Shown in pieces: positions 8,782-61,787 of a DNA stretch of 64,000 nt (its first letter is position 1; the number at the start of each line of letters is the position of its first letter). The notes below the pieces were generated by a model that did not search any database, was not told the DNA's origin, and worked only from the letters and a program-made list of their open reading frames with translations. Position numbers and translations under genes: made by a program. Where the stretch lies: NCBI RefSeq assembly GCF_024730785.1, contig NZ_CP102830.1, positions 3,100,001-3,164,000 of the forward strand, in the 5' to 3' direction. This DNA comes from Pseudomonas sp. LS44. GTDB taxonomy: Bacteria > Pseudomonadota > Gammaproteobacteria > Pseudomonadales > Pseudomonadaceae.

Positions 8782-8876
8782 CGGGTTAGGCCTCCACGCA
8801 TCCCGATGACCAACCCATGGCTCTAGCCAAGGGCACCCAGGTCAACGTGTCGATACGTGTGCGGGTTAGGCTTCCA
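8782..8876 (-). ncRNA. rpsB 5' leader with repeated element (t44/tff-like position)
   Basis: The leader between the predicted promoter and rpsB contains a 15-nt element twice in direct orientation (8782-8796 and 8862-8876, one mismatch, 80 bp apart; CGGGTTAGGC core on the plus strand). In enterobacteria the same map-rpsB gap holds the t44/tff RNA, which is the rpsB leader. I infer a structured autoregulatory leader by position; I could not verify a conserved fold. Confidence 0.4.
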
Positions 8877-8903
8877 GGACGTGCAGCCCAGAAAGCGGCG
8901 CAT

Positions 8904-24986: not shown

Positions 24987-25036
24987 GTAGGGCGGGTGCA
25001 ACCCGCCGAATGCAACGCGGGTTGCACCCGCCCTAC
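24987..25036. repeat. Inverted repeat GTAGGGCGGGTGCAACCCGC
   Basis: Two perfect 20-nt arms are separated by 10 nt. The same arms occur at 49221-49284 with a 24-nt spacer. The 24780-25099 gap therefore holds this repeat, the MITE-like element and the csp terminator, and no gene. Confidence 0.85.
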
Positions 25037-49220: not shown

Positions 49221-49284
49221 GTAGGGCGGGTGCAACCCGCGCTGTGCCTTGCCGAAGCTGCCACGCGGGTTGCACCCGCCCTAC
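49221..49284. repeat. Inverted repeat GTAGGGCGGGTGCAACCCGC, second locus
   Basis: Two perfect 20-nt arms around a 24-nt spacer, with arms identical to 24987-25036. It lies between the convergent acyl-CoA ligase and ybcH-like genes. A further GATGGGT/ACCCATC pair overlaps the ybcH stop. Confidence 0.85.
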
Positions 49285-49375: not shown

Positions 49376-50215
49376 TCATTTGCGCAATCGCGCGCCCCAG
49401 GGTCGATAGCGCAACTCGAACACCGCGACCCGCCGGCAAGCGGTGTCCAGGGCGCCGGGTTTGGCGGGCTGCGCGGCGAACGGCTGTCCTTCCGTGCTGG
49501 TCTGGCGGAACGCCTCGCGCACCACGCCGACCGTGCACGGCAGCGCCCGTTCGTAGGCCTGGCGCACCAGCGGCTCCAGGCGGGCGGTGCCGGCGCCGTC
49601 CTGCCACCAGACCTGGATGCCGAGCTCGCCCAGCCCGCCCAGCCAGCCGGCATACACCTGCGGCGCCAGCCGGCCACCAGTGAAGGCGCTCAGGTGCAGT
49701 GGCGCATCCAGCTGGCCGGCGAAGTCCTTGAGCTGGGCGTGCAGCGCCTGGCGCCGCTCCGGCGCATGGAAATTCAGATCGTCCAGCTCCAGCGGCAGAT
49801 ACCAGCCGGCCACCGGCAGCTGCCAGTCCTGACGCAAGCGTTGCTGCAGCGCCAGCGAGCGACCGAGCTGGTACTGCCAGTAGGAGGCCAGGCCGGCGCT
49901 GTCGAGTCCGTTCAGACGCTGGTAATAGTCCGGATCCATATACAACCCGAGCACCAGCTCGAGGCCCTGAGTCCGGGCCTCGCGCAACGATTGAGCCAGC
50001 CAGCCGTCGTGGCCACCGAAATCGGCATCGCCATAGGCGCTCCATTGCACCACCAGAGTACGCACGCCCTGCTGGGCGCTGGCTTGCCAGAGCTGCGTCC
50101 AGTCTTCCTGGGACAGCGCCGCATCCGCGTTCAGCGGCTGGTAGAACAGGTGCTCCTCGGCCCGCGCCTGGGCGAGCGCAAGCAGTAGGGTCAGGCCAAA
50201 CAGTAGTCGGCGCAT
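49376..50215 (-). CDS. ybcH: YbcH-like DUF4434 protein of the Nfr polysaccharide operon
   Basis: A 279-residue exported protein with signal peptide MRRLLFGLTLLLALAQARA and a DUF4434-type TIM-barrel domain (LFYQPLNADAALSQEDW, GVRTLVVQWSAYGD, LELVLGLYMDPDYYQRL, GWYLPLELDDLNF). The acidic WYLPLELDD strand end resembles a glycoside hydrolase catalytic strand, so it may trim or modify the glycan; this is inference. It is the last gene of wecB-nfrB-nfrA-ybcH, and its ATG overlaps the nfrA stop in TGATG. In E. coli ybcH also follows nfrB-nfrA. Confidence 0.82.
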   Translation of the reverse strand: MRRLLFGLTLLLALAQARAEEHLFYQPLNADAALSQEDWTQLWQASAQQGVRTLVVQWSAYGDADFGGHDGWLAQSLREARTQGLELVLGLYMDPDYYQRLNGLDSAGLASYWQYQLGRSLALQQRLRQDWQLPVAGWYLPLELDDLNFHAPERRQALHAQLKDFAGQLDAPLHLSAFTGGRLAPQVYAGWLGGLGELGIQVWWQDGAGTARLEPLVRQAYERALPCTVGVVREAFRQTSTEGQPFAAQPAKPGALDTACRRVAVFELRYRPWGARLRK

Positions 50216-53200
50216 CAGAAGCTCACCTCGACGCCCAGGAGCCAGCCATTGGCTCGTTCATAGAGATTGCCGCCCAGCCCCAGCTGGTACTCGCTGCGCA
50301 CCGTGACGTGGGCACGGTAGGCGTTGTAACGGTCGTCGCCGTACCAGTATTGCCAGCGCAGGCCGACGCCGCTGCGCAGGTCCTGGCGCCAAGCGTTGTC
50401 CGGGTCCTGCGTGGCGAACTCGGCGAAGCCGTAGGGCATCAGGGTTTGCGGCGAGTCGACCGGTAGTTTCCAGGCATGCCCCTGCTGGAAGCGCGACAGC
50501 CATTGATGGTCGCCGGCCTTGGTCCACCAGGCGGCATCCAGATAGAGCGAGCGCTCGCTCCAGTCGCTCTCGTCGACGCGCCAGTCGTTGCGGTAATCGC
50601 CTTGATCGAGAAACGACGCGCTGGCGCGCAGTAGATAGTCGGTGGAGGTCTGGAAGTACTTGTCACGCTGGCGAATCTCGCGCTCGAACTTCTTCGGCGT
50701 CCACAGTGTGTTCCAGCGCTGGCCGGCAAAGACCTCGTCCGGGTTGCCTTCGCTGGGGTCCTGGTTCTGCTTGTACAGCTCGCCGTACAGGTTGAGGTTG
50801 TAGTCGCCGAACGGTTTGTAGCGCAGGCCGACGCCGGCACCGAGGTACTGATTGTAGAGCTTGCGCCCGGCGGAACCGGCCAGCACCCGGCCATATACCG
50901 ACAGACTGCGGCCATCGCGGCTCGGCTCGTCGCCAAGGGCGTGATCCCAAATCGCCTGCTGCACGTTCTGCGCGGCGGCGCGGCGGCGTTCGCCGGTCTG
51001 GTCGTTGGGCAGCGGCACGCTGTAGGTCGCGATCCCGGCCGGCGACCAGACGCTGGCCAAGGTCAGGTTGTCGCGCTGTGACAGCGCCTGGTGAGCGCGG
51101 CGTTGGCGGTAGCGGCGCGCCTCTAGGCTGCCGTACTCATCGGCGCCGGCCACCGGCTGCTGCTCCAGGTCGATCGCCCGGCGCAGCTCGCGGCGCGCGG
51201 CGGTGCCGTCCTCGGCTTCGGCGTAGCGCCAGGCCAGGGTCTCGGCGAGGCGGTAATCCTCGGGGTAGTCGCGGCTGGCCTGCTCCAGGTAGGGGATCGC
51301 CAGGCGCCGCTCCGCTGGGGTCGGCGCACCGGCCAGGCGCATGCCGTAGTCGGCGCGGTAGCGCGGCTGGTCCGGCGCCAGGCGCATCGCCTCGACCAGC
51401 CAGGCGTTGCCTTGCGCCGGGTCGCCGGCCTGTTGCGCAAGGTTGGCGGCGACGTAGTAATGCTCGGCACGCGGCCGGTGCTGCAGGGCTTCGCGCTGGC
51501 GCTGCAGGGCCAGCTGCGGGTCGCCCTGAGCGGTGGCGATGGCCGCACCGAGCGCCCAGTCGTCGGCGGCGGCATGCCGGGCATGCTGCCAATGCCGTTC
51601 GGCCGCCTGCGGGTCGCCGGCACCCAAGGCGCTGCGGCTGGCAGTCAGGCGCGCGTTGTCGTTCAGCTCGCGGTCGCCGAAGCCCTGCCAGAGACGCCAG
51701 GCGCCCGGCGCATCCCCCGCGGCCTCCAGGGCGTAGGCCAGCGGCAGGCGGCTGTCCCGGTCGCCGCGCTGCAACGCGGCCTGGTAGTAGACCACCGCCG
51801 CTCCGGGGCGCTCAGGCATGGAGCAGCGGCCGAGGGCGCGCAGCTCGCCGGTTTCGCTCGGTTGCTCCGGGATCTGCCGGCGCACCAGGTCGCAGCGCCC
51901 GGCCTCGGCCAGACGACCGAGCAGCTGTGCCCGCGCGGCCGGGTCAACGTGCGCCAGCAGGCGCTCGATGCGAGGCGCGTCCAGTGGCGTGTCGACCTTG
52001 GCGTAGAGTCCGGCCAGCCGCTGCAGCGGTGCTGCTGGCAGGCGCCCGGCATGGCGGTCGAAGGCGCCTTCCAGCAGGCGTTGCGCATGCGCGTCCTGGC
52101 CGGCGCGCAGCGCCAGGTAGCTGGCCTGATCGAGCGCCGCGAGACTGCCGGTCTGCCGGTACTTGCGCTCCCACAACGCCTCGGCCTCACCACCGCGACC
52201 CTCGCGCTGCAGCAACTCGGCGCGCCGGCGCAGGGTCGCCGGGGTCTGCGGCTGGGCGGCCAGCCAGGCCAGGGCGCGGTCGCTGCGGCCCTGCTGCTGC
52301 CAGACTTCCAGTAGCCGCTCGCGCCGCGCCGTGTCCCAGGGCTCCGGCAGATGCTGGCGCTCGAGCAGACCATCCGCCTGCAGGCGCTGGGCGAGGACCA
52401 GCCAGGTTTGTGGGTCGGCCTGCGGGTTGCAGGCGTGCAACTGGTCGAGCGCTTCCTCACGGTCATGGCCGGACAGCCACTCGGCGGTCTCCAGACAGGG
52501 GTGTTGCAGCTCGTTGCTCAGTCGCCGCGCCAGGGCGCTGTCGCCGCTTTGCCGGGCCAGTTCCCACAACCGCTGCCGCTCGGCTGGGAGATCTTGTTCG
52601 TCGGCCGGCAGCCTCTGCAGCCAGCGCCCAGCCAGCTCCGCGTCGCCGGCGGCGATGGCGCGCTCGGCCAGCGCCCGTCGAGCAGTCACGGCGTCACGCT
52701 CGTAAGGCGCCTGGCGCAGCAACTGTTCGAGATCGCGCTCGTCCAGGCGCTGCACATAGGCATTGGCCAGCCGTCGCCAACTGGCGGCGGACAGTTCCCG
52801 GCGCGCGGCCAACGGCGCCAGTTCGTCGATGGTGGTCTGGCTGTCTTGCAACTGCTCGGCCAGCACCGCCCGGGCCTGGCGCAGGGCCAGGCCATCGTCG
52901 CTATTCGGCACCCGGCGCAACCAGTCCAGGGCCGCTTGCGGGCCGGCGCGCCGCGCCAAGGCCAGGCTGTAGGCCCGCCACAGGCGCTGGCGATCCACCG
53001 AATCGGCCTTGGCCAGCCAGGCGTCCACCTGGTCGTGGCCTGGAGGATCCTCGGCGATCCAGGCCAGGCGCAGGTCCTCCAGACGGTTTGAGTCCAGCCC
53101 GCCGGCAAGCGCATCGCCCTCGGCAAAACGCTTCTGTTCGAGCAACGCACGCACCAGCAGGGCGCGAGCCTCACCGTTGTTCGGCACCTTGCCGAGCAGG

Positions 53201-53370
53201 AAGCGCGTCAGCCGCTCGACTTCCGCCCAGTTCTGCCGATCGGCCTCGCGGTAGGCACGGTCCATGTAGGGAAAGCTGCGGAACTGCTGGAAGTCGCTGA
53301 GTGGCCAACCAGCGCCGTTCACCGCTCCCGCCAGGATCATCGCCAGGGTGCCGGCCAGCCAGCGCTTCAT
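50215..53370 (-). CDS. nfrA: NfrA-like outer-membrane polysaccharide exporter (phage N4 receptor type)
   Basis: A 1051-residue exported protein. Signal peptide MKRWLAGTLAMILAGAVNGA is followed by about 700 residues of TPR-like helical repeats (for example NGEARALLVRALLEQKRFAEGDAL and NAWLVEAMRLAPDQPRYRADYGMRLAG). The C-terminal NfrA_C beta-barrel runs from about residue 810 (SLSVYGRVLAGSAGRKLYNQYLGAG onward) to the terminal aromatic GVEVSF. The layout matches E. coli NfrA, the outer-membrane component needed for phage N4 adsorption and secretion of the N4 glycan receptor. Its ATG overlaps the nfrB stop (ATGA). Confidence 0.88.
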   Translation of the reverse strand: MKRWLAGTLAMILAGAVNGAGWPLSDFQQFRSFPYMDRAYREADRQNWAEVERLTRFLLGKVPNNGEARALLVRALLEQKRFAEGDALAGGLDSNRLEDLRLAWIAEDPPGHDQVDAWLAKADSVDRQRLWRAYSLALARRAGPQAALDWLRRVPNSDDGLALRQARAVLAEQLQDSQTTIDELAPLAARRELSAASWRRLANAYVQRLDERDLEQLLRQAPYERDAVTARRALAERAIAAGDAELAGRWLQRLPADEQDLPAERQRLWELARQSGDSALARRLSNELQHPCLETAEWLSGHDREEALDQLHACNPQADPQTWLVLAQRLQADGLLERQHLPEPWDTARRERLLEVWQQQGRSDRALAWLAAQPQTPATLRRRAELLQREGRGGEAEALWERKYRQTGSLAALDQASYLALRAGQDAHAQRLLEGAFDRHAGRLPAAPLQRLAGLYAKVDTPLDAPRIERLLAHVDPAARAQLLGRLAEAGRCDLVRRQIPEQPSETGELRALGRCSMPERPGAAVVYYQAALQRGDRDSRLPLAYALEAAGDAPGAWRLWQGFGDRELNDNARLTASRSALGAGDPQAAERHWQHARHAAADDWALGAAIATAQGDPQLALQRQREALQHRPRAEHYYVAANLAQQAGDPAQGNAWLVEAMRLAPDQPRYRADYGMRLAGAPTPAERRLAIPYLEQASRDYPEDYRLAETLAWRYAEAEDGTAARRELRRAIDLEQQPVAGADEYGSLEARRYRQRRAHQALSQRDNLTLASVWSPAGIATYSVPLPNDQTGERRRAAAQNVQQAIWDHALGDEPSRDGRSLSVYGRVLAGSAGRKLYNQYLGAGVGLRYKPFGDYNLNLYGELYKQNQDPSEGNPDEVFAGQRWNTLWTPKKFEREIRQRDKYFQTSTDYLLRASASFLDQGDYRNDWRVDESDWSERSLYLDAAWWTKAGDHQWLSRFQQGHAWKLPVDSPQTLMPYGFAEFATQDPDNAWRQDLRSGVGLRWQYWYGDDRYNAYRAHVTVRSEYQLGLGGNLYERANGWLLGVEVSF

Positions 53371-55544
53371 GCGGCCTCCCGAGCGATTAGCCAGGACGCG
53401 TGCTGCTCAGCGGCCTGCGTCTGCAGGGCCTGCTCGAGCACTTCCCGGCTGATCAGGCCACGCGCGATCAGGTGCTCGCCCAAGGGCGCGCGTTCCGCGT
53501 CGAAGTCAATCAGGGCCTGCCGGAATAGCGACGGCGGCACCAGGCCGCGCACCTGCAGCAGCTCGCCGAGCTGTATCTGGTGCAAACAGATGCGCTCCAT
53601 CAGTACGGCATCCTCATGGCGGCGCTCCAGTATCTGCAAAACCTCACGGACTTCAGCGGCTTGATGGTGACCGGGATACCAGTGGCGCAGACCGAGCACC
53701 ACCCGGCCCTGCGGCGCCAGACAGCAGCGCACCGGGCGCTGTAGCTGGCGACTGATGGCACCGAGCGAAACCTGGCCGACCGGCCACTCGCTGGCCAACA
53801 CCAGACAGTCGCCCTCCTCCGCAACCGGCAGCACCGCGTAGCGCAACGCCAGCCTGCGCGGCAGCTGGGCGATGAGCTGGGGCGTCAGGGTAAAGGGGTC
53901 GAGCGGCATCGCCTCCATGTCCAATTGCTCGGCCAATTCCTGCAGCAATTGCTGACTATCGATCAGCCCGCGCAGCAGCAGTTCGCGGCCCAGATGGTTG
54001 CGGATCGGACTGGTCAGCGCCGCTTCAAGCTGCGCCTCGCTGATCAACCCCCGCTCGACTAGCCGGTGGCCCAACGGCACGTGCTGCGCCCGACCGATGG
54101 TCGGGAACTCGTGGGTGGTCTTGTCCCAGGCGACGCGGCGCGAGTCGCCGGCCTGGATGACCTGGCGCAGCGCCTTGAGATTGGCGAAGAAGTTGACGAC
54201 GTTGCTCCACACCATGCGCGGTGCCGAGCGCAGCCCCTCGACCACGCCGTAGTAACGGCTGACGAACCAGAAACGCTGGAACAGCCGGTTGACCAGCAAC
54301 ACGCCATTGATCAGCAGTAACGCCGATAGGAAGCGGTTGTGCGTAATGATCGACTGGAAGTGCCAGGCCTCGGGCACCAGCAGGCTGATCAGCGACATGG
54401 CCAGCAGCACGAGGAACAGCAGGTTGACCAGAAAGCCCATCCCAAAGGCCAACAGGCCGCGCCGATCTCGCCAGAGGAAGTAGTTGAGCGCCAGCCTGGA
54501 GCTCCAGCCGAGGTTGGTGGTGCCCTGGAAGACGATGCCGGTGATCCAGCGCGACTTCTGCCGCACCGCGTGCTGGAAGGTGCGCGGAAAATGCTCGCGT
54601 ACGCAGATCACCTGGGCGAAATGGCGGTCCATGCCCAGCGCCCAGTTGCGGTTCAGGGCCAGCTTCGGATCTTCCACCGAATAACGGGCGAAAATAGTCG
54701 TCATGCCCTTCTGGTTGAGGCGAAAGCCGATGTCGTAGTCCTCGGTGAGGCTCTGCACGTCAAAGGCGATGCCGTCGCCATCCTCCAGCAGGGCGCTGAT
54801 CGCCCGGCGGCTGAAGCAGGTGCCGACCCCGGCGCTCGGCACCTGGCCGGTCAGTGCCTCGCGCACCACCACGTCCTTGCCGTGGCTCTCGGCGAACTCG
54901 TCGACATAGTGCCCGGCTGTCATCCCGCCGAACTCCGAGGCAAAGGGGTAGACCGGCACCTGCACCATGTCCTTGCCCTCGCCGAGCAGGTAGTTGAACA
55001 GGCGCAGCTCCAGCGGCGAGATAACGTCCTCGGCGTCATGCATGACGAAGCCGGCGAACTGCACCCGGGCATCCACCTCGAAACGCAGGATGGCGTCGAT
55101 CACATTGTTCAGGCAGTCGGCCTTGCTGGTCGGCCCCGGTCGCGCGCAGACCACCTTGTGCACGTTGGGATAGTGCAGGCACACGGCATCCACGTCCGCC
55201 TGGGTCTGCGGATCGTTCGGGTAGGTGCCGACGAAGATCTGGTAGTTCTCGTAGTCCAGGGTCGAGGCCGCCAGACGGGCCATCTCGCCGACCACGCCGA
55301 CCTCCTGCCAGGCCGGCACCATGATCGCCAGCGGCTGCTCGGCCCTCTCGAACAGGCGCTGCTCGTCGGCGCGCTCGAACTTGCCGTAGATGCGGTAGCG
55401 GCGGATCAGCAGGCGCAGCCAGTAGAAGATGTCGATGAACAGGTCATCCAGGCCAAATACCAGCATCAGCACGGCCAGCACGGTGGCGAGGACTTTCAGG
55501 GCATACAGGGCGTAAACCAGGACATTGACCAGTTCCAGACTCAT
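53367..55544 (-). CDS. nfrB: NfrB-like glycosyltransferase with MshEN-type c-di-GMP-binding repeats
   Basis: A 725-residue inner-membrane polymerase. Membrane helices near residues 10-30 and 360-425 flank a GT2 domain with VMHDAED (D170, D173), the acid pair in SLTEDYDIGFRL (E268, D269) and the QxxRW motif QKSRW (329-333). The C-terminal 240 residues hold MshEN/GspE-N-type repeats: PLGHRLVERGLISEAQLEAAL (490-510), LGRELLLRGLIDSQQLLQEL (518-537), QLGELLQVRGLVPPSLFRQAL (658-678) and PLGEHLIARGLISREVLEQAL (687-707). Such repeats bind c-di-GMP in MshE and in E. coli NfrB. Likely donor: UDP-ManNAc from WecB. ATG 55544 overlaps the wecB stop. Confidence 0.9.
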   Translation of the reverse strand: MSLELVNVLVYALYALKVLATVLAVLMLVFGLDDLFIDIFYWLRLLIRRYRIYGKFERADEQRLFERAEQPLAIMVPAWQEVGVVGEMARLAASTLDYENYQIFVGTYPNDPQTQADVDAVCLHYPNVHKVVCARPGPTSKADCLNNVIDAILRFEVDARVQFAGFVMHDAEDVISPLELRLFNYLLGEGKDMVQVPVYPFASEFGGMTAGHYVDEFAESHGKDVVVREALTGQVPSAGVGTCFSRRAISALLEDGDGIAFDVQSLTEDYDIGFRLNQKGMTTIFARYSVEDPKLALNRNWALGMDRHFAQVICVREHFPRTFQHAVRQKSRWITGIVFQGTTNLGWSSRLALNYFLWRDRRGLLAFGMGFLVNLLFLVLLAMSLISLLVPEAWHFQSIITHNRFLSALLLINGVLLVNRLFQRFWFVSRYYGVVEGLRSAPRMVWSNVVNFFANLKALRQVIQAGDSRRVAWDKTTHEFPTIGRAQHVPLGHRLVERGLISEAQLEAALTSPIRNHLGRELLLRGLIDSQQLLQELAEQLDMEAMPLDPFTLTPQLIAQLPRRLALRYAVLPVAEEGDCLVLASEWPVGQVSLGAISRQLQRPVRCCLAPQGRVVLGLRHWYPGHHQAAEVREVLQILERRHEDAVLMERICLHQIQLGELLQVRGLVPPSLFRQALIDFDAERAPLGEHLIARGLISREVLEQALQTQAAEQHASWLIAREAA

Positions 55545-56692
55545 GCACCGGCATTCCCGTACTGCTCGTTCAACCAGAAAACCAGGTGCTCGGCGATGTA
55601 CTCGCTGGCGTGGCCATCGCCATAGGGGTTGCTGGCCCGGCTCATCTGCTGGTACGCCTCGGCATCGTCGAGCAACAGGCTGGTCTCGCTGACGATGCCC
55701 GCCACGCTGGTACCCACCAGGCGCACCGTGCCCGCCGCCACGGCCGAGGGCCGCTCGGTGGTGCGGCGCATCACCAGCACCGGCTTGCCAAGTGACGGTG
55801 CTTCCTCCTGGATGCCGCCGGAGTCGGTGAGGATCAGGTGTGAACGGTCCATCAGCCAGACGAACGCCGGATAGTCCAGCGGCGCAATCAGGTGGATGTT
55901 GCGGCGCCCGCCGAGCAGCGCATGCACCGGCTGCTGCACCTGTGGGTTGAGGTGTACCGGGTAGACGAAAGTCACCTCGGGGTACTTGTCGGCCAGGATG
56001 GTGATGGCCTGGCAGATGTGTTCGAAGCCCTTGCCGAAGTTCTCCCGGCGGTGCCCGGTGATCAACACCAGCCGCCCCTCCCGGGGCAGAGCCGCGAGCG
56101 GCGAGCCGGCCGGCGGTTGCCAGCCGGTTTCGTCCAGGTGCGCCTTCATCCACAGCAACGCGTCGATCACCGTGTTGCCGGTGACCTCCATGTTCTCCAG
56201 CGGCACCCACTCCTTGAGCAGGTTGTTGCGGGCCACCCGGGTGGGCGGGAAATGCAGGCTGGCAATCACCGCGGTGAGGTGACGGTTGGCCTCCTCCGGC
56301 CAGGGCGAGTTGACATCACCCGTGCGCAATCCGGCCTCGACGTGGGCCACCGGGATGTGCCGATAGAATGCGGCCAGGGCGGCGACGAAGCTGGTGGTGG
56401 TGTCGCCATGCACCAGCACGACCTGCGGCTGTTGCGCCGCGTAGACCTGATCGAGCCGTCCCAGCAACTGCTGGCTGAGCCCGTTTAGACTCTGCCCCTC
56501 GGTCATCACCTGGAGGTTCTCGTCGACCTGCAACTCGAAGGCATCCAGCACCTGCTGGAGCATCTCGCGGTGCTGGCCGGTGACGCAGACGTACAGTTCG
56601 ATTTCTGCCCGCTCGCGCAGCACGCGCGCCAGCGGGGCCATCTTGATCGCCTCGGGGCGGGTACCGAAGACCATCATTACGCGATAGGACAT
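55541..56692 (-). CDS. wecB: UDP-N-acetylglucosamine 2-epimerase (non-hydrolysing)
   Basis: A 383-residue GT-B-fold epimerase that interconverts UDP-GlcNAc and UDP-ManNAc. It has the family start VMMVFGTRPEAIKMAPLARVL, VTGQHREML, HGDTTTSFVAALAAFY, HVEAGLRTGDVNSPWPEEANR, GHRRENFGKGFEHI and the nucleotide loop TDSGGIQEEAPSLGKPVLVMR. It is the first gene of the operon and overlaps nfrB in an ATGA. A dedicated copy here supplies UDP-ManNAc to NfrB without the ECA pathway that provides WecB in E. coli. GAGG lies 12 bases before the ATG. Confidence 0.95.
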   Translation of the reverse strand: MSYRVMMVFGTRPEAIKMAPLARVLRERAEIELYVCVTGQHREMLQQVLDAFELQVDENLQVMTEGQSLNGLSQQLLGRLDQVYAAQQPQVVLVHGDTTTSFVAALAAFYRHIPVAHVEAGLRTGDVNSPWPEEANRHLTAVIASLHFPPTRVARNNLLKEWVPLENMEVTGNTVIDALLWMKAHLDETGWQPPAGSPLAALPREGRLVLITGHRRENFGKGFEHICQAITILADKYPEVTFVYPVHLNPQVQQPVHALLGGRRNIHLIAPLDYPAFVWLMDRSHLILTDSGGIQEEAPSLGKPVLVMRRTTERPSAVAAGTVRLVGTSVAGIVSETSLLLDDAEAYQQMSRASNPYGDGHASEYIAEHLVFWLNEQYGNAGA

Positions 56693-56860: not shown

Positions 56861-59800
56861 TCAGCGTTCCTGCTTGACCCGGAACCAGGCCGCGTACAGC
56901 GCTGGCAGAAACACCAGAGTCAGTACCGTGGCGACGATCAAGCCGCCCATGATCGCCACTGCCATCGGCCCGAAGAAGATACTACGCGACAGTGGGATCA
57001 TCGCCAGCACCGCCGCCAGACCGGTCAGCACGATGGGCCGGAAGCGCCGTACGGTCGCTTCGATAATCGCGTTCCATTTGTCCAAACCGGAGCTGATGTC
57101 CTGTTCGATCTGGTCGACCAGAATCACCGAGTTGCGCATGATCATCCCCGACAGGGCGATGGTGCCGAGCATCGCGACGAAGCCGAAGGGCATCTGGAAC
57201 ACGAGCAGGAACAGGGTCACGCCGATCAGCCCCAGCGGCGCGGTGAGGAACACCATCGCCGAGCGCGAGAAGCTCTTCAGCTGCAGCATCAGCAACGTCA
57301 GCACCACGACGATGAACAGCGGAATACCGGCGTTCACCGAGCGCTGGCCACGCCCGGAATCTTCCACGGTGCCGCCGACATCCAGCAGATAGCCGGCCGG
57401 CAGCTCGGCACGGATCGATTCGAGATTCGGCAGGATCTGCTTGGCTACCCCGGTCGGCAGCGTCTTGTCGTAGATATCGCCGCGAATGGTCACCGTCGGC
57501 AGGCGGTTGCGGTGCCAGATGATGCCTTCTTCGAAGCCATATTCGAGGGTGGCGATCTGCGACAGCGGCACGCTTTTGCCCGAGCTGGTCGGCACCGCCA
57601 GGCTCGGCAGCAAGGCCAGCTCCTGACGCTCACGCACGGTGCCGCGCAACTGGATGTCGATCAGCTCATTGTCCTCGCGGTACTGGCTAACCGGCGCGCC
57701 GGTCAGCGAGCTCTGCAAGAACCTCGACAGCTCCGCCGTGCTGATGCCCAGGGCCCGCGCACGCTCCTGATCGATGTTCAAGCGCACCACTTTGCTCGGC
57801 TCTTCCCAGTCCAGGTGCACGTTCACCACATGCGGGTTGTCGCGCACTTTGGCGGCGACCTTGCGCGCTAGCGCCCGCACCTCGTCGATGTGCTCGCCGG
57901 ACACGCGGAACTGCACCGGATAACCCACCGGCGGACCATTCTCCAGACGCGAAACGCGGGTCCGCACGGTGGGGAATTCGTCGTTGACGGTGTCGATCAG
58001 CCAGGTGCGCAGCTCTTCGCGATCCTTGATGGTCTTGGCCAACACCACGAACTGGGCGAAGCTCGCCGCCGGCAATTGCTGATCGAGCGGCAGATAGAAG
58101 CGCGGCGAGCCGGTGCCCACATAGGCCACATAGTTGTCGATACCCGGATGGTTCTTCAGCAGCTCCTCGAGGCGTCCGGCGACCGCCGCAGTGTTGGTCA
58201 GCGAAGCGCCTTCGTTGAGTTTCAGATCGACCATCAGCTCCAGGCGCCCGGAGGACGGGAAGAACTGCTGGGGAATGAAGCGGAACAGCACGACGGAGGC
58301 GACAAACGCGGCGGCGGTGAGGAGGATCACCGTCTTGCGCCGCCGCACGCACCACCCCACCACGCGCCGAACGCGCTGGTAAAACGGGGTCGAATAGGGA
58401 TCGTGACCCTTGTCGCTGCCGCCGTGCTTCTCGGCATGGCGCTTGGCTAGATCCGGCAGCAGGCGCGCGCCCAGGTAAGGCACGAACACCACTGCGGCAA
58501 TCCACGAGACCAGCAGGGCGATGGTCACCACCTGGAAGATCGAGCGGGTGTATTCACCGGTACTCGATTGCGCAGTGGCGATTGGCAGGAAGCCGGCGGC
58601 GGTAATCAGCGTCCCGGTGAGCATCGGGAAGGCCGTACTGGTCCAGGCATAGCTGGCCGCCTTGAGCCGGTCGTAGCCCTGCTCCATCTTGATCGCCATC
58701 ATTTCCACGGCAATGATCGCGTCGTCGACCAGCAAGCCGAGGGACAGCACCAGGGCGCCGAGGGAAATCTTGTGCAGGCCGATGTTGAAGTAGTACATGG
58801 CGGCGAACGTCATCGCCAGCACCAGCGGAATCGATAGCGCCACCACCAGGCCGGTACGCAGGCCGAGCGAGAAGAAACTCACCAGCAGAACGATGATCAG
58901 CGCTTCGGCGAGCACGCGGACGAATTCGCCGACGCCGGTCTTCACCGCCGCCGGCTGGTCGGAAACCTTGCGCAGCTGCATACCGGCTGGCAGGCTTTCC
59001 TGCAGGCGGGCGAAATCTGCCTCGAGCGCATCGCCGAGCACCAGAATGTCGCCACCGGGCTTCATCGATACCGCCAGACCGATGGCATCCTCGCCCATGA
59101 AGCGCATACGCGGCGCGGGTGGATCGTTGAAGCCACGCTTGACCTCGGCCACATCGCTGATGCGAAAAGTCCGGTCGCCGACCCGGATCGGAAAGTCGCG
59201 AATTTCCTTCACCGAGTCGAACTTACCGCTGACCCGCAGCTGCACACGGTCGCTGGAGGTCTCGAAGAAACCTGCGGCGGCTATCGCGTTCTGCTCCTCC
59301 AACGCCTTCTGCACCGCGGCCAACGGCAGGCCGAGAGTCGCCAGCTTGACGTTGGACAGCTCAATCCAGATTTTCTCGTCCTGCAGACCGATCAGGTCGA
59401 CCTTGCCCACATCCTTGACCCGCTGCAGTTGCAGCTGAATGCGGTCGGCATAGTCCTTGAGCACCGCATAGTCGAAACCTTCGCCGGTCAGTGCATAGAT
59501 ATTGCCGAAGTTAGTGCCGAACTCGTCGTTGAAGAACGGCCCCTGGATGCCCTGCGGCAGGGTGTGGCGGATGTCGCCGACCTTCTTGCGCACCTGGTAC
59601 CACAGCTCGGGAATCTCCTTGGAGGTCATCGAATCGCGGGCGATGAACGTCACCTGCGACTCGCCCGGCCGCGAGAAGGACAGAATCCGATCGAAATCGC
59701 CGGTTTCCATGAGTTTCTTCTCGATGCGCTCGGTGACCTGTCGCGACATCTCCTCGGCGCTCGCGCCCGGCCATTGGGTACGCACCACCATGGCCTTCCA

Positions 59801-59929
59801 GGTGAATGGCGGATCCTCGCTCTGGCCCAGCTTGGTGTAGGAGATGGCGCCGACAATGCCCAGCAAGAGCATGAGATAGAGGACGATCTGGCGGTTCTGC
59901 AGCGCCCAGGCGGAAAGGTTGAAGCCCAT
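56861..59929 (-). CDS. RND efflux permease (HAE-1 type)
   Basis: A 1022-residue inner-membrane proton-driven transporter of the AcrB superfamily with twelve predicted helices. The central proton relay is the D-D pair in LGLLVDDAIIAVEMMAIKM (TM4), and TM10-12 includes LSGMIMRNSVILVDQIEQD. The N-terminus (MGFNLSAWALQNRQIVLYLMLLLGIVGA) resembles the TriC/VmeK-like subgroup more than MexB. It is 5 bp after the adaptor gene. No outer-membrane channel gene is adjacent, so it probably uses a shared TolC/OpmH-type protein. Substrates are unknown. Confidence 0.92.
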   Translation of the reverse strand: MGFNLSAWALQNRQIVLYLMLLLGIVGAISYTKLGQSEDPPFTWKAMVVRTQWPGASAEEMSRQVTERIEKKLMETGDFDRILSFSRPGESQVTFIARDSMTSKEIPELWYQVRKKVGDIRHTLPQGIQGPFFNDEFGTNFGNIYALTGEGFDYAVLKDYADRIQLQLQRVKDVGKVDLIGLQDEKIWIELSNVKLATLGLPLAAVQKALEEQNAIAAAGFFETSSDRVQLRVSGKFDSVKEIRDFPIRVGDRTFRISDVAEVKRGFNDPPAPRMRFMGEDAIGLAVSMKPGGDILVLGDALEADFARLQESLPAGMQLRKVSDQPAAVKTGVGEFVRVLAEALIIVLLVSFFSLGLRTGLVVALSIPLVLAMTFAAMYYFNIGLHKISLGALVLSLGLLVDDAIIAVEMMAIKMEQGYDRLKAASYAWTSTAFPMLTGTLITAAGFLPIATAQSSTGEYTRSIFQVVTIALLVSWIAAVVFVPYLGARLLPDLAKRHAEKHGGSDKGHDPYSTPFYQRVRRVVGWCVRRRKTVILLTAAAFVASVVLFRFIPQQFFPSSGRLELMVDLKLNEGASLTNTAAVAGRLEELLKNHPGIDNYVAYVGTGSPRFYLPLDQQLPAASFAQFVVLAKTIKDREELRTWLIDTVNDEFPTVRTRVSRLENGPPVGYPVQFRVSGEHIDEVRALARKVAAKVRDNPHVVNVHLDWEEPSKVVRLNIDQERARALGISTAELSRFLQSSLTGAPVSQYREDNELIDIQLRGTVRERQELALLPSLAVPTSSGKSVPLSQIATLEYGFEEGIIWHRNRLPTVTIRGDIYDKTLPTGVAKQILPNLESIRAELPAGYLLDVGGTVEDSGRGQRSVNAGIPLFIVVVLTLLMLQLKSFSRSAMVFLTAPLGLIGVTLFLLVFQMPFGFVAMLGTIALSGMIMRNSVILVDQIEQDISSGLDKWNAIIEATVRRFRPIVLTGLAAVLAMIPLSRSIFFGPMAVAIMGGLIVATVLTLVFLPALYAAWFRVKQER

Positions 59930-59934
59930 CGGGA

Positions 59935-61038
59935 TTACTCCTTACCAGCCAGTTTGACCGCACGATTGGCACGGTCCACCGGATGCACCTTCTGACCTTC
60001 CTGTAATACCTGCACGCCGGCGGCGACCACCCAATCGTCGGCGCTGAGCCCTTCGAGTACCGGCACCAGCTTGTCGGTGTACGCGCCAATGCGCACCAAA
60101 CGGCGTTGGATGGTCGAGGTTTGTGGATCGACCACCCACACGTACGGCTGATTGTTCTCTGCGGTTAGCGCCGACATCGGCACCGCCAACGGCACATCGC
60201 CATTCGCCTGCACGAACACGCGGGCGCTCTGGCCCAGCTCGGCACGCACTTTGCCGTCCTTGAACGACACCCGCGCCGCATAGGTACGCGACTGTGGATC
60301 GGCGGCTGGCGACAGCTCACGAATTTGTCCGGCAAAGCGTTCACCGGGTTGCGACCAGAGTTCGACCGCAACGGCCTGGCCGATCTTGAAATGCTCGATG
60401 GCATGCTCAGGCAGGCTGATCAGCACTTCCCGCTCGCCATCGGCCGCCAGGGTGAATACGGTTTGTCCGGCGGCCACAACCTGACCGTCCTCGACCCGCC
60501 GGCTGGCAATCACGCCCGCCGCTGGAGCACGCAGCACCGCATAGTCGGCCTGGTTGCTGGCGACATTGAATTCGGCGCGGATCTGCTTCACCCGCGCCGC
60601 GCCGGCGCGGTACTGGTTTTCCACGGTGTCGTATTGCGAGCGGCTGATCATCTGCCGCTCCAGCAAGGTTTTGTAACGGTCGCGTTCGCTGCTCACCAGC
60701 TTCAGGTTGGCTTCGGCAGCGACCACCTGGGCGCGCGCGGCATCCAGTTGCAGGCGCACATCCTCGGGGTCGAGCTGGGCCAGCGGCTGATCCTTCTTGA
60801 CCCGCGCGCCGCTGTCGACCAGGCGTTTGCTGACCTTGCCGCCAATCCGGAAGGCCAGGTCCGGCTCCAATCGCGCGCGCACCTCGCCCGGATAGGCATC
60901 GACCGCTTCACCAGCGGGCTGCGGCTGCACGACCATGGCGGGGCGAATGGCCTGAGCCACCTGCTCCCCGTTACCACAAGCAGCGAGCAGACAGATAAGA
61001 GTCAACGGCAAGACATGAGGCGGGATGCGGCGACGCAT
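59935..61038 (-). CDS. RND efflux periplasmic adaptor (lipoprotein)
   Basis: A 367-residue membrane-fusion protein. The signal ends in a lipobox (ICLLAACGN, C21). The lipoyl, helical hairpin and beta-barrel domains follow, with coiled-coil stretch LDAARAQVVAAEANLKLVSSERDRYKTL and second lipoyl half ADYAVLRAPAAGVIASRRVEDGQVV. ATG 61038 with AAGGTG upstream is preferred; the longer open frame crosses the operator region. It is divergent from the TetR gene and 5 bp before the permease gene. Confidence 0.92.
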   Translation of the reverse strand: MRRRIPPHVLPLTLICLLAACGNGEQVAQAIRPAMVVQPQPAGEAVDAYPGEVRARLEPDLAFRIGGKVSKRLVDSGARVKKDQPLAQLDPEDVRLQLDAARAQVVAAEANLKLVSSERDRYKTLLERQMISRSQYDTVENQYRAGAARVKQIRAEFNVASNQADYAVLRAPAAGVIASRRVEDGQVVAAGQTVFTLAADGEREVLISLPEHAIEHFKIGQAVAVELWSQPGERFAGQIRELSPAADPQSRTYAARVSFKDGKVRAELGQSARVFVQANGDVPLAVPMSALTAENNQPYVWVVDPQTSTIQRRLVRIGAYTDKLVPVLEGLSADDWVVAAGVQVLQEGQKVHPVDRANRAVKLAGKE

Positions 61039-61074
61039 GGCAGTGCACCTTACGAAAGAAACGGTTTGAATATT

Positions 61075-61090
61075 TATACTGCGCGGTATA
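61075..61090. promoter_or_regulatory. Operator-like dyad between RND and TetR genes
   Basis: TATACTGCGCGGTATA is a 16-bp near-perfect palindrome (one mismatched pair). It lies 37 bp before the adaptor gene and 53 bp before the TetR gene, the expected place for a TetR operator controlling both. Confidence 0.65.
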
Positions 61091-61142
61091 GTAAAAATAC
61101 CAAACTCACCAGTCCAGTATTCCTGAGCGAATAAATCCACAA

Positions 61143-61787
61143 ATGTCTGACAATTCGTTGCAACCCAGCGGGCCCGGCCGACCCAAGGACCCCGCCAAGC
61201 GCAAGGCCATCCTTGAGGCCGCCAAAACCCTGTTTCTGCGCAACGGTTTTGACGGCAGCAGCATGGATGCAATTGCTGCCGAGGCGGGGGTTTCCAAGCT
61301 CACCGTGTACAGCCATTTCACCGACAAGGAGACCTTGTTTTCCGCCGCAGTAAAGGCCAAATGCGAAGAACAGTTGCCGGAACTGATGTTCGAGCTGATC
61401 GACGGCGTACCCATGGAAACGGTGCTGATGAACATCGGCCGCGGGTTTCACGCGCTGATCAGCAGTGGCGAGTCGATCGAACTGCACCGCCTACTGGTGA
61501 CGCTGGGCAGTCAGGACCCGACGCTGGCCAAAATGTTCTTCGATGCCGGCCCGCAGCGCGTACTGCACGAGATGGAACACCTGCTGGCGAAAGTCCACGC
61601 CAGCGGACAGCTGCAGATCAGCAAGCCACTGAACGCCGCCGAACACTTCTTTTGCCTGATCAGGGGCGGCGTCAACTTCCGCCTACTGGCCGGCTGCGGC
61701 GAGCAACTCAGCCCGAGCGAAGCCGAAGAACACGTCCAAGAAGTAGTCGAACTGTTTATCCGCGCTTATCACCCGCGACCCGACTGA
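61143..61787 (+). CDS. TetR family repressor of the RND operon
   Basis: A 214-residue TetR/AcrR regulator with the DNA-binding region FDGSSMDAIAAEAGVSKLTVYSHFTDKETLFSAAV (about residues 37-71) and an AefR-like C-terminal domain (LHRLLVTLGSQDPTLAKMFFDAGP). It is divergent from the RND adaptor, with a dyad in the shared gap, so repression of the pump with relief by ligand is likely. Confidence 0.92.
   Translation: MSDNSLQPSGPGRPKDPAKRKAILEAAKTLFLRNGFDGSSMDAIAAEAGVSKLTVYSHFTDKETLFSAAVKAKCEEQLPELMFELIDGVPMETVLMNIGRGFHALISSGESIELHRLLVTLGSQDPTLAKMFFDAGPQRVLHEMEHLLAKVHASGQLQISKPLNAAEHFFCLIRGGVNFRLLAGCGEQLSPSEAEEHVQEVVELFIRAYHPRPD

Follow-up and report, generated by a model that had tools for sequence, protein, structure and literature searches.

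The closest described relative of the locus reported here is nfrBA-ybcH of Escherichia coli K-12, which together with wecB accounts for the N4 glycan receptor (NGR) glycan. The presence of N-acetylmannosamine (ManNAc) in this glycan was proposed from genetics, with no chemical structure, in the available text of PMC8669469 (Junkermeier & Hengge 2021) and PMC8669472 (Sellner et al. 2021), and no title on the chemical structure of an N4-type receptor glycan occurs among the papers listed from 2022 on. According to the accessible part of PMC8669472, E. coli wecB belongs to the enterobacterial common antigen (ECA) operon. PMC8669469 describes a second arrangement: in every identified organism whose other pathways include no WecB homologue, such a gene lies immediately next to nfrB, Pseudomonas soli SJ10 being an example. 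The same paper associates a GGDEF gene with the operon in most pseudomonads, whose members were found, in the text available, by TBLASTN and motifs. The 2021 papers also record extended Nfr-like clusters carrying acetylation genes, from Achromobacter and from Simplicispira; the available portion of PMC8669472 places Achromobacter nfrA, nfrB and wecB together with homologues of BcsB and an O-acetyltransferase. The accessible parts of PMC6467409 and PMC7650795 add nothing on nfr genes in Pseudomonas.

Analysis of a 64,000-nucleotide stretch of the Pseudomonas sp. LS44 genome (hereafter the window) reveals a wecB-nfrB-nfrA-ybcH operon, whose genes follow one another head to tail along the minus strand between window positions 49376 and 56692. 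The genes and their junctions, the latter read directly from the sequence, are as follows.

55541-56692, minus strand: wecB (nfrC), first gene, 383 amino acids, non-hydrolysing UDP-GlcNAc (uridine diphosphate N-acetylglucosamine) 2-epimerase
55541-55544, minus strand: wecB/nfrB ATGA overlap, GCATGAGT
53367-55544, minus strand: nfrB, 725 amino acids, membrane glycosyltransferase family 2 (GT2) synthase with a C-terminal MshEN domain for cyclic dimeric guanosine monophosphate (c-di-GMP)
53367-53370, minus strand: nfrB/nfrA ATGA overlap, GCATGAAG
50215-53370, minus strand: nfrA, 1051 amino acids, outer-membrane exporter with helical repeats and an NfrA_C strand-rich C-terminus
50213-50217, minus strand: nfrA/ybcH TGATG junction, TTCTGATGCG
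49376-50215, minus strand: ybcH, 279 amino acids, DUF4434 protein with a predicted TIM barrel

The start of nfrB is taken as the ATG that overlaps wecB; the 947-residue version given by the open reading frame lister is an upstream extension. A sequence-only reading had named four minus-strand genes joined by ATGA, ATGA and TGATG junctions and encoding an epimerase, a QxxRW glycosyltransferase, an exporter and a DUF4434 protein. The reading frames and junction sequences bear out the first part, and Pfam, NCBIfam and a QKSRW motif in NfrB bear out the second. Novelty of the wecB linkage is rejected here: section 11 of PMC8669469 already describes it, with a Pseudomonas example. The locus is thus confirmed as a well-formed member of a described system, and it is very probably a compact Nfr (NGR-type) exopolysaccharide operon combining UDP-ManNAc supply by WecB, c-di-GMP-gated synthesis by NfrB and export by NfrA, with the YbcH step standing apart. 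In this scheme, WecB would convert UDP-GlcNAc to UDP-ManNAc, and NfrB, switched on when c-di-GMP binds MshEN, would polymerise a chain that probably contains ManNAc, moving it across the inner membrane. NfrA would then take the chain through the periplasm and outer membrane, while YbcH, placed in the periplasm, might, at about even odds, trim or clear it as a glycoside hydrolase. The operon would accordingly bring the proposed glycan pathway, gated by c-di-GMP, together in a single unit.

NfrB contains Glyco_trans_2_3 and MshEN domains in Pfam, the latter at 39.9 bits against a cut-off of 23.1, and aligns with K-12 NfrB at 51% identity. The alignment was used for MshEN because a regular expression for the motif proved too strict, finding no match even in E. 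coli. All seven residues that have been probed in E. coli are identical: D170, D269, W333, L491, G492, G519 and L537 correspond to D169, D267, W330, L490, G491, G519 and L537. In the available text of PMC8669469 and PMC8669472, mutation of these E. coli residues lowered or abolished N4 infection, L537 having been mutated only jointly with L490. The GT2 active-site motifs are present, with D170 in HDAED, D269 in TED and W333 in QKSRW, while L491, G492, G519 and L537 supply the key MshEN residues. On the whole, the operon's proteins resemble functional components of the Nfr system. The score of NfrB falls just below the curated NCBIfam cut-off (1164.6 versus 1170 bits), and that of NfrA clearly below (1011.8 versus 1223 bits); these cut-offs are naming thresholds rather than biological features. 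In addition to the known pair, NfrB has two further MshEN-like motifs of LG type near its C-terminus, at residues ~655-710 (window 53415-53582, minus strand); of these two, E. coli keeps LG in only the second. Judged from its sequence, the additional pair is a possible second c-di-GMP site.

For NfrA, Pfam reports NfrA_C at 90.8 bits against a cut-off of 25 and no TPR domain, and identity to E. coli NfrA is 25%. The predicted model contains helical repeats at ~26-737 with good confidence and strands at 822-1050 with a low predicted local distance difference test (pLDDT) score, the arrangement expected of an NfrA-type outer-membrane exporter encoded alongside the synthase. The description of NfrA as TPR repeats plus a beta-barrel is therefore likely as far as the modelled repeats go, although Pfam finds no TPR domain and the barrel is not well modelled.

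Genome surveys show that this gene order is common. Among 149 same-genus genomes searched at a single E-value cut (E <= 1e-100), 38 contain NfrB relatives, giving 39 matches that fall into two kinds: 21 compact loci at 70-100% identity and 18 loci at ~37-42%, with one genome (G025) holding both. In the compact loci, nfrA and ybcH follow nfrB in all 21, and wecB directly precedes nfrB in 17, the window included. A second set, the best 80 of 398 named loci, is biased to close relatives and partly overlaps the 149-genome sample; the complete wecB-nfrB-nfrA-ybcH order occurs in 72 of the 80 and wecB is missing in 8. The overlap between wecB and nfrB measures 4 bases in 64 of 66 named loci, namely those under the 15 commonest junction patterns. 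Since the gene order recurs in 17 of the 21 compact loci and in 72 of the 80 named ones, it is not due to chance. Two of the 80 records are titled Pantoea and one Thalassospira. The latter, titled Thalassospira profundimaris, holds a complete wecB-nfrB-nfrA-ybcH operon (locus L165, 7853-15190) whose NfrB is 66% identical to the window's, reflecting either lateral transfer or a mislabelled record.

Compared with other wecB-linked pseudomonad operons such as that of P. soli SJ10, the window shares the gene order and the usual 4-base wecB/nfrB overlap, but lacks the GGDEF gene that most of them carry after ybcH. A same-strand GGDEF gene follows ybcH in 18 of the 21 compact loci, being absent from the window, G027 and G129. 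In the named set, a same-strand GGDEF match of at least 60 bits lies 641-993 bases after ybcH in 64 of 80 loci, and the gene is also absent in the near relative P. carbonaria. Elsewhere in the LS44 genome there are 35 GGDEF matches, the nearest ~34 kb away. If c-di-GMP does control NfrB here, then with no diguanylate cyclase gene attached it would be supplied by a cyclase encoded away from the operon.

The fourth gene offers the sole fresh lead of this analysis. YbcH matches DUF4434 in Pfam at 64.1 bits and PRK09936 at 349.5 bits, just over the cut-off of 344; its N-terminus looks signal-like by eye. It is 32% identical to E. coli YbcH, and its best named match, from Pseudomonas cavernae, reaches 87%. 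The predicted model is a TIM barrel (pLDDT 83.9), and structure comparison of this model returns mostly glycoside hydrolases among the best matches. In an alignment of 139 rows, in which the window's own protein is present twice and identity extends down to 26%, E143, D145 and D206 occur in all 139 rows and E234 in 138, with D in the remaining one. Enzymes of clan GH-A place two conserved carboxylates at the ends of strands 4 and 7. By the strand limits of the model, E143 lies on strand 4 and E234 after strand 7, so that the predicted YbcH shows both the barrel and the paired carboxylates of a glycoside hydrolase. The TIM-barrel model, the mostly glycoside-hydrolase matches and the nearly invariant glutamates together suggest that YbcH may cut the polymer. 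We tentatively propose, with a little less than even confidence, that YbcH/DUF4434 proteins form a glycoside-hydrolase family, so far uncharacterised, that acts specifically on the Nfr polymer. Such a family, a counterpart of the PgaB hydrolase domain or PslG, would set the length of the chain or remove polymer that has stalled. Relative to the PgaB C-terminal domain (glycoside hydrolase family 153, GH153) and PslG, the hydrolase role of YbcH is predicted, and sequence searches of the PDB link it to no solved structure beyond chance-level matches. The literature searched contained no mention of DUF4434.

Under the competing view, which follows the original proposal for E. coli, YbcH has no catalytic function and acts in the periplasm as a scaffold or by binding glycan; we give this view a little less than an even chance. 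Inactive proteins with a glycosidase fold exist, some of the structural matches at similar Z are non-glycosidases, and the effects of deletion in E. coli are mild. The accessible text of PMC8669469 describes E. coli YbcH as a putative scaffold whose signal stays uncleaved and serves as an anchor. The invariance of E143, D145 and D206 and the near-invariance of E234, with E143 and E234 at the ends of barrel strands 4 and 7, argue against a non-catalytic role. If YbcH does cut the polymer, the fourth gene would gain a mechanism, and a specific enzyme would be at hand for removing the N4 receptor glycan and establishing its identity.

A different product is less probable, and we consider it somewhat unlikely that the polymer made here departs from the NGR glycan of E. 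coli, as would a mixed GlcNAc/ManNAc chain for which WecB supplies one of two sugars. The E. coli system comprises the same four proteins, yet identity to the E. coli counterparts falls to 25% for NfrA and 32% for YbcH, which leaves room for a changed product. The extended loci likewise suggest a product that differs among members of the wider family. In the 18 remoter loci of the survey, wecB is present in all 18 and lies ~2.4-2.8 kb upstream of the synthase, whereas in the window it directly precedes nfrB; their NfrB-like synthase is 37-42% identical, and a DUF4434 relative was found in 13 of 18. The one extended locus checked by Pfam (L065) has a BcsB-like gene between wecB and the synthase, followed after the synthase by NfrA_C, AlgF, AlgX and a DUF4434 protein just under the cut-off (27.1 versus 30). 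On the other side, the choice of sugar should lie with NfrB, the best conserved against E. coli of the three Nfr proteins, which keeps the active-site residues probed there. In addition, wecB is the sole sugar-nucleotide gene in the operon. An NGR-type glycan remains the favoured product. The operon would also offer a clean system for working out the chemistry of an N4-type receptor glycan, which has so far been inferred from genetics in the available text of PMC8669469 and PMC8669472.

The supply of sugar nucleotide appears to be built into the operon, as the sequence-only reading held, and the NfrBA-YbcH system here carries its own epimerase rather than depending on one in an ECA operon, as in E. 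coli. WecB scores 476.5 bits on TIGR00236 (NCBIfam cut-off 210.15), providing the Nfr system with a UDP-GlcNAc 2-epimerase. Its best PDB relatives are enzymes of this type, among them 1f6d, which we take to be the E. coli enzyme, and it has all four of the motifs HGDT, HVEAGLRT, WPEEANR and GHRRE, presumably catalytic. Two further Epimerase_2 proteins of the same genome also exceed the TIGR00236 cut-off (317.3 and 216.1 bits), and a fourth Epimerase_2 match, at 19.8 bits, is under its cut-off. One of the two is WbpI-like: its top PDB match is a UDP-diNAcGlcA (UDP-2,3-diacetamido-2,3-dideoxyglucuronic acid) 2-epimerase at 424 bits, with 293 bits to 4neq (named UDP-GlcNAc 2-epimerase) and 149 to 1f6d, and it scores 357 bits on Epimerase_2. 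The other is judged FnlC-like because it comes after an FnlA-like gene (674 bits, cut-off 730) and a WbcJ gene (742, cut-off 500). On these assignments, a second ordinary WecB in the genome was rejected as a matter of judgement. Both genes lie in an O-antigen-type cluster at 1.434-1.456 Mb of the genome (L084, L033), which holds TviB/WbpA-like dehydrogenase, WbpI-like, FnlA-like, WbcJ and FnlC-like genes.

No ECA-type WecC scored over the cut-off in the genome (best 188 versus 459 bits), in a search whose control set gave a match in 13 of 14 genomes and one over the cut-off, and a profile search found no WecF, with only E. coli matching in the control set. Given the WbpI- and FnlC-like character of the other epimerases, the lack of WecC over the cut-off and the lack of WecF, the operon's WecB is the best candidate in the genome for UDP-ManNAc supply. 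These absences fit the earlier claim that the pathway can run without ECA; this is a contrast with E. coli, though not a new property. That WecB mainly feeds another pathway and sits in the operon incidentally is very improbable: its product could in principle feed N-acetylmannosaminuronic acid (ManNAcA) sugars and the genome encodes four WecC-like dehydrogenases, but all four are below the cut-off, and the 4-base overlap with nfrB and the placement of wecB before nfrB in most named loci speak against it.

Comparison across the compact loci largely bears out the published rule that wecB stands beside nfrB when there is no other WecB. All four compact loci without linked wecB come from genomes with a strong epimerase elsewhere (412-414.5 bits on Epimerase_2). 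In three of these the unlinked wecB adjoins a wecC-like gene, and these three genomes are close kin, their wecC-like genes being 98-100% identical; in the fourth (G057), no wecC-like gene was found near the epimerase within the 10 kb fetched. Another epimerase of at least 350 bits is present in two of the 17 linked genomes, namely the window's own WbpI-like protein and one in G025 (399 bits) that sits in the second, extended Nfr-like cluster of that genome. The association between linkage and another epimerase gives a Fisher p of 0.0025 at 350 bits or more and 1.7e-4 at a 400-bit cut, both uncorrected for relatedness.

Phage proteins provide a further connection. N4 gp65 recognises NfrA, according to the available text of PMC12892993, which also states that the P. 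aeruginosa N4-like phage DEV uses lipopolysaccharide and LptD. A search with gp65 matched 118 records, and in 36 of them the match covers 80% or more of the query; 60 of the 118, and 40 of the 64 records matched by gp66, were listed, spread over the ranking. Pseudomonas phage inbricus, whose host by its record is P. syringae pv. avii, encodes a full-length gp65 relative at 54% identity, and the nearest Achromobacter phages among the matches listed reach 54-56%. N4 gp66 matches phage inbricus over residues 1-259 at 39% identity. The full-length gp65 relative makes it plausible, at the level of sequence, that a Pseudomonas phage whose tail sheath is of the N4 gp65 type could depend on Nfr.

The surroundings of the operon show several other features. 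Upstream of wecB, a simple pattern scan found no sigma-28-like pattern, and window 56861-61272 (minus strand) contains what appear by eye to be genes for an RND (resistance-nodulation-division) efflux pump and a membrane-fusion protein. At the matching place in G027 (L044), a near relative, the genes look alike, which suggests shared synteny. Inverted pairs of GTAGGGCGGGTGCAACCCGC occur at window 49221-49284, directly downstream of ybcH, and at 24987-25036. A 17-base core has 53 exact copies in the genome (27 forward, 26 reverse), against 0 for a reversed control pattern, and many copies form inverted pairs by eye, so these repeats look like a REP/REPIN (repetitive extragenic palindromic) element. 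A t44 RNA (Rfam RF00127, 71.2 bits) lies at window 8785-8881 on the minus strand.
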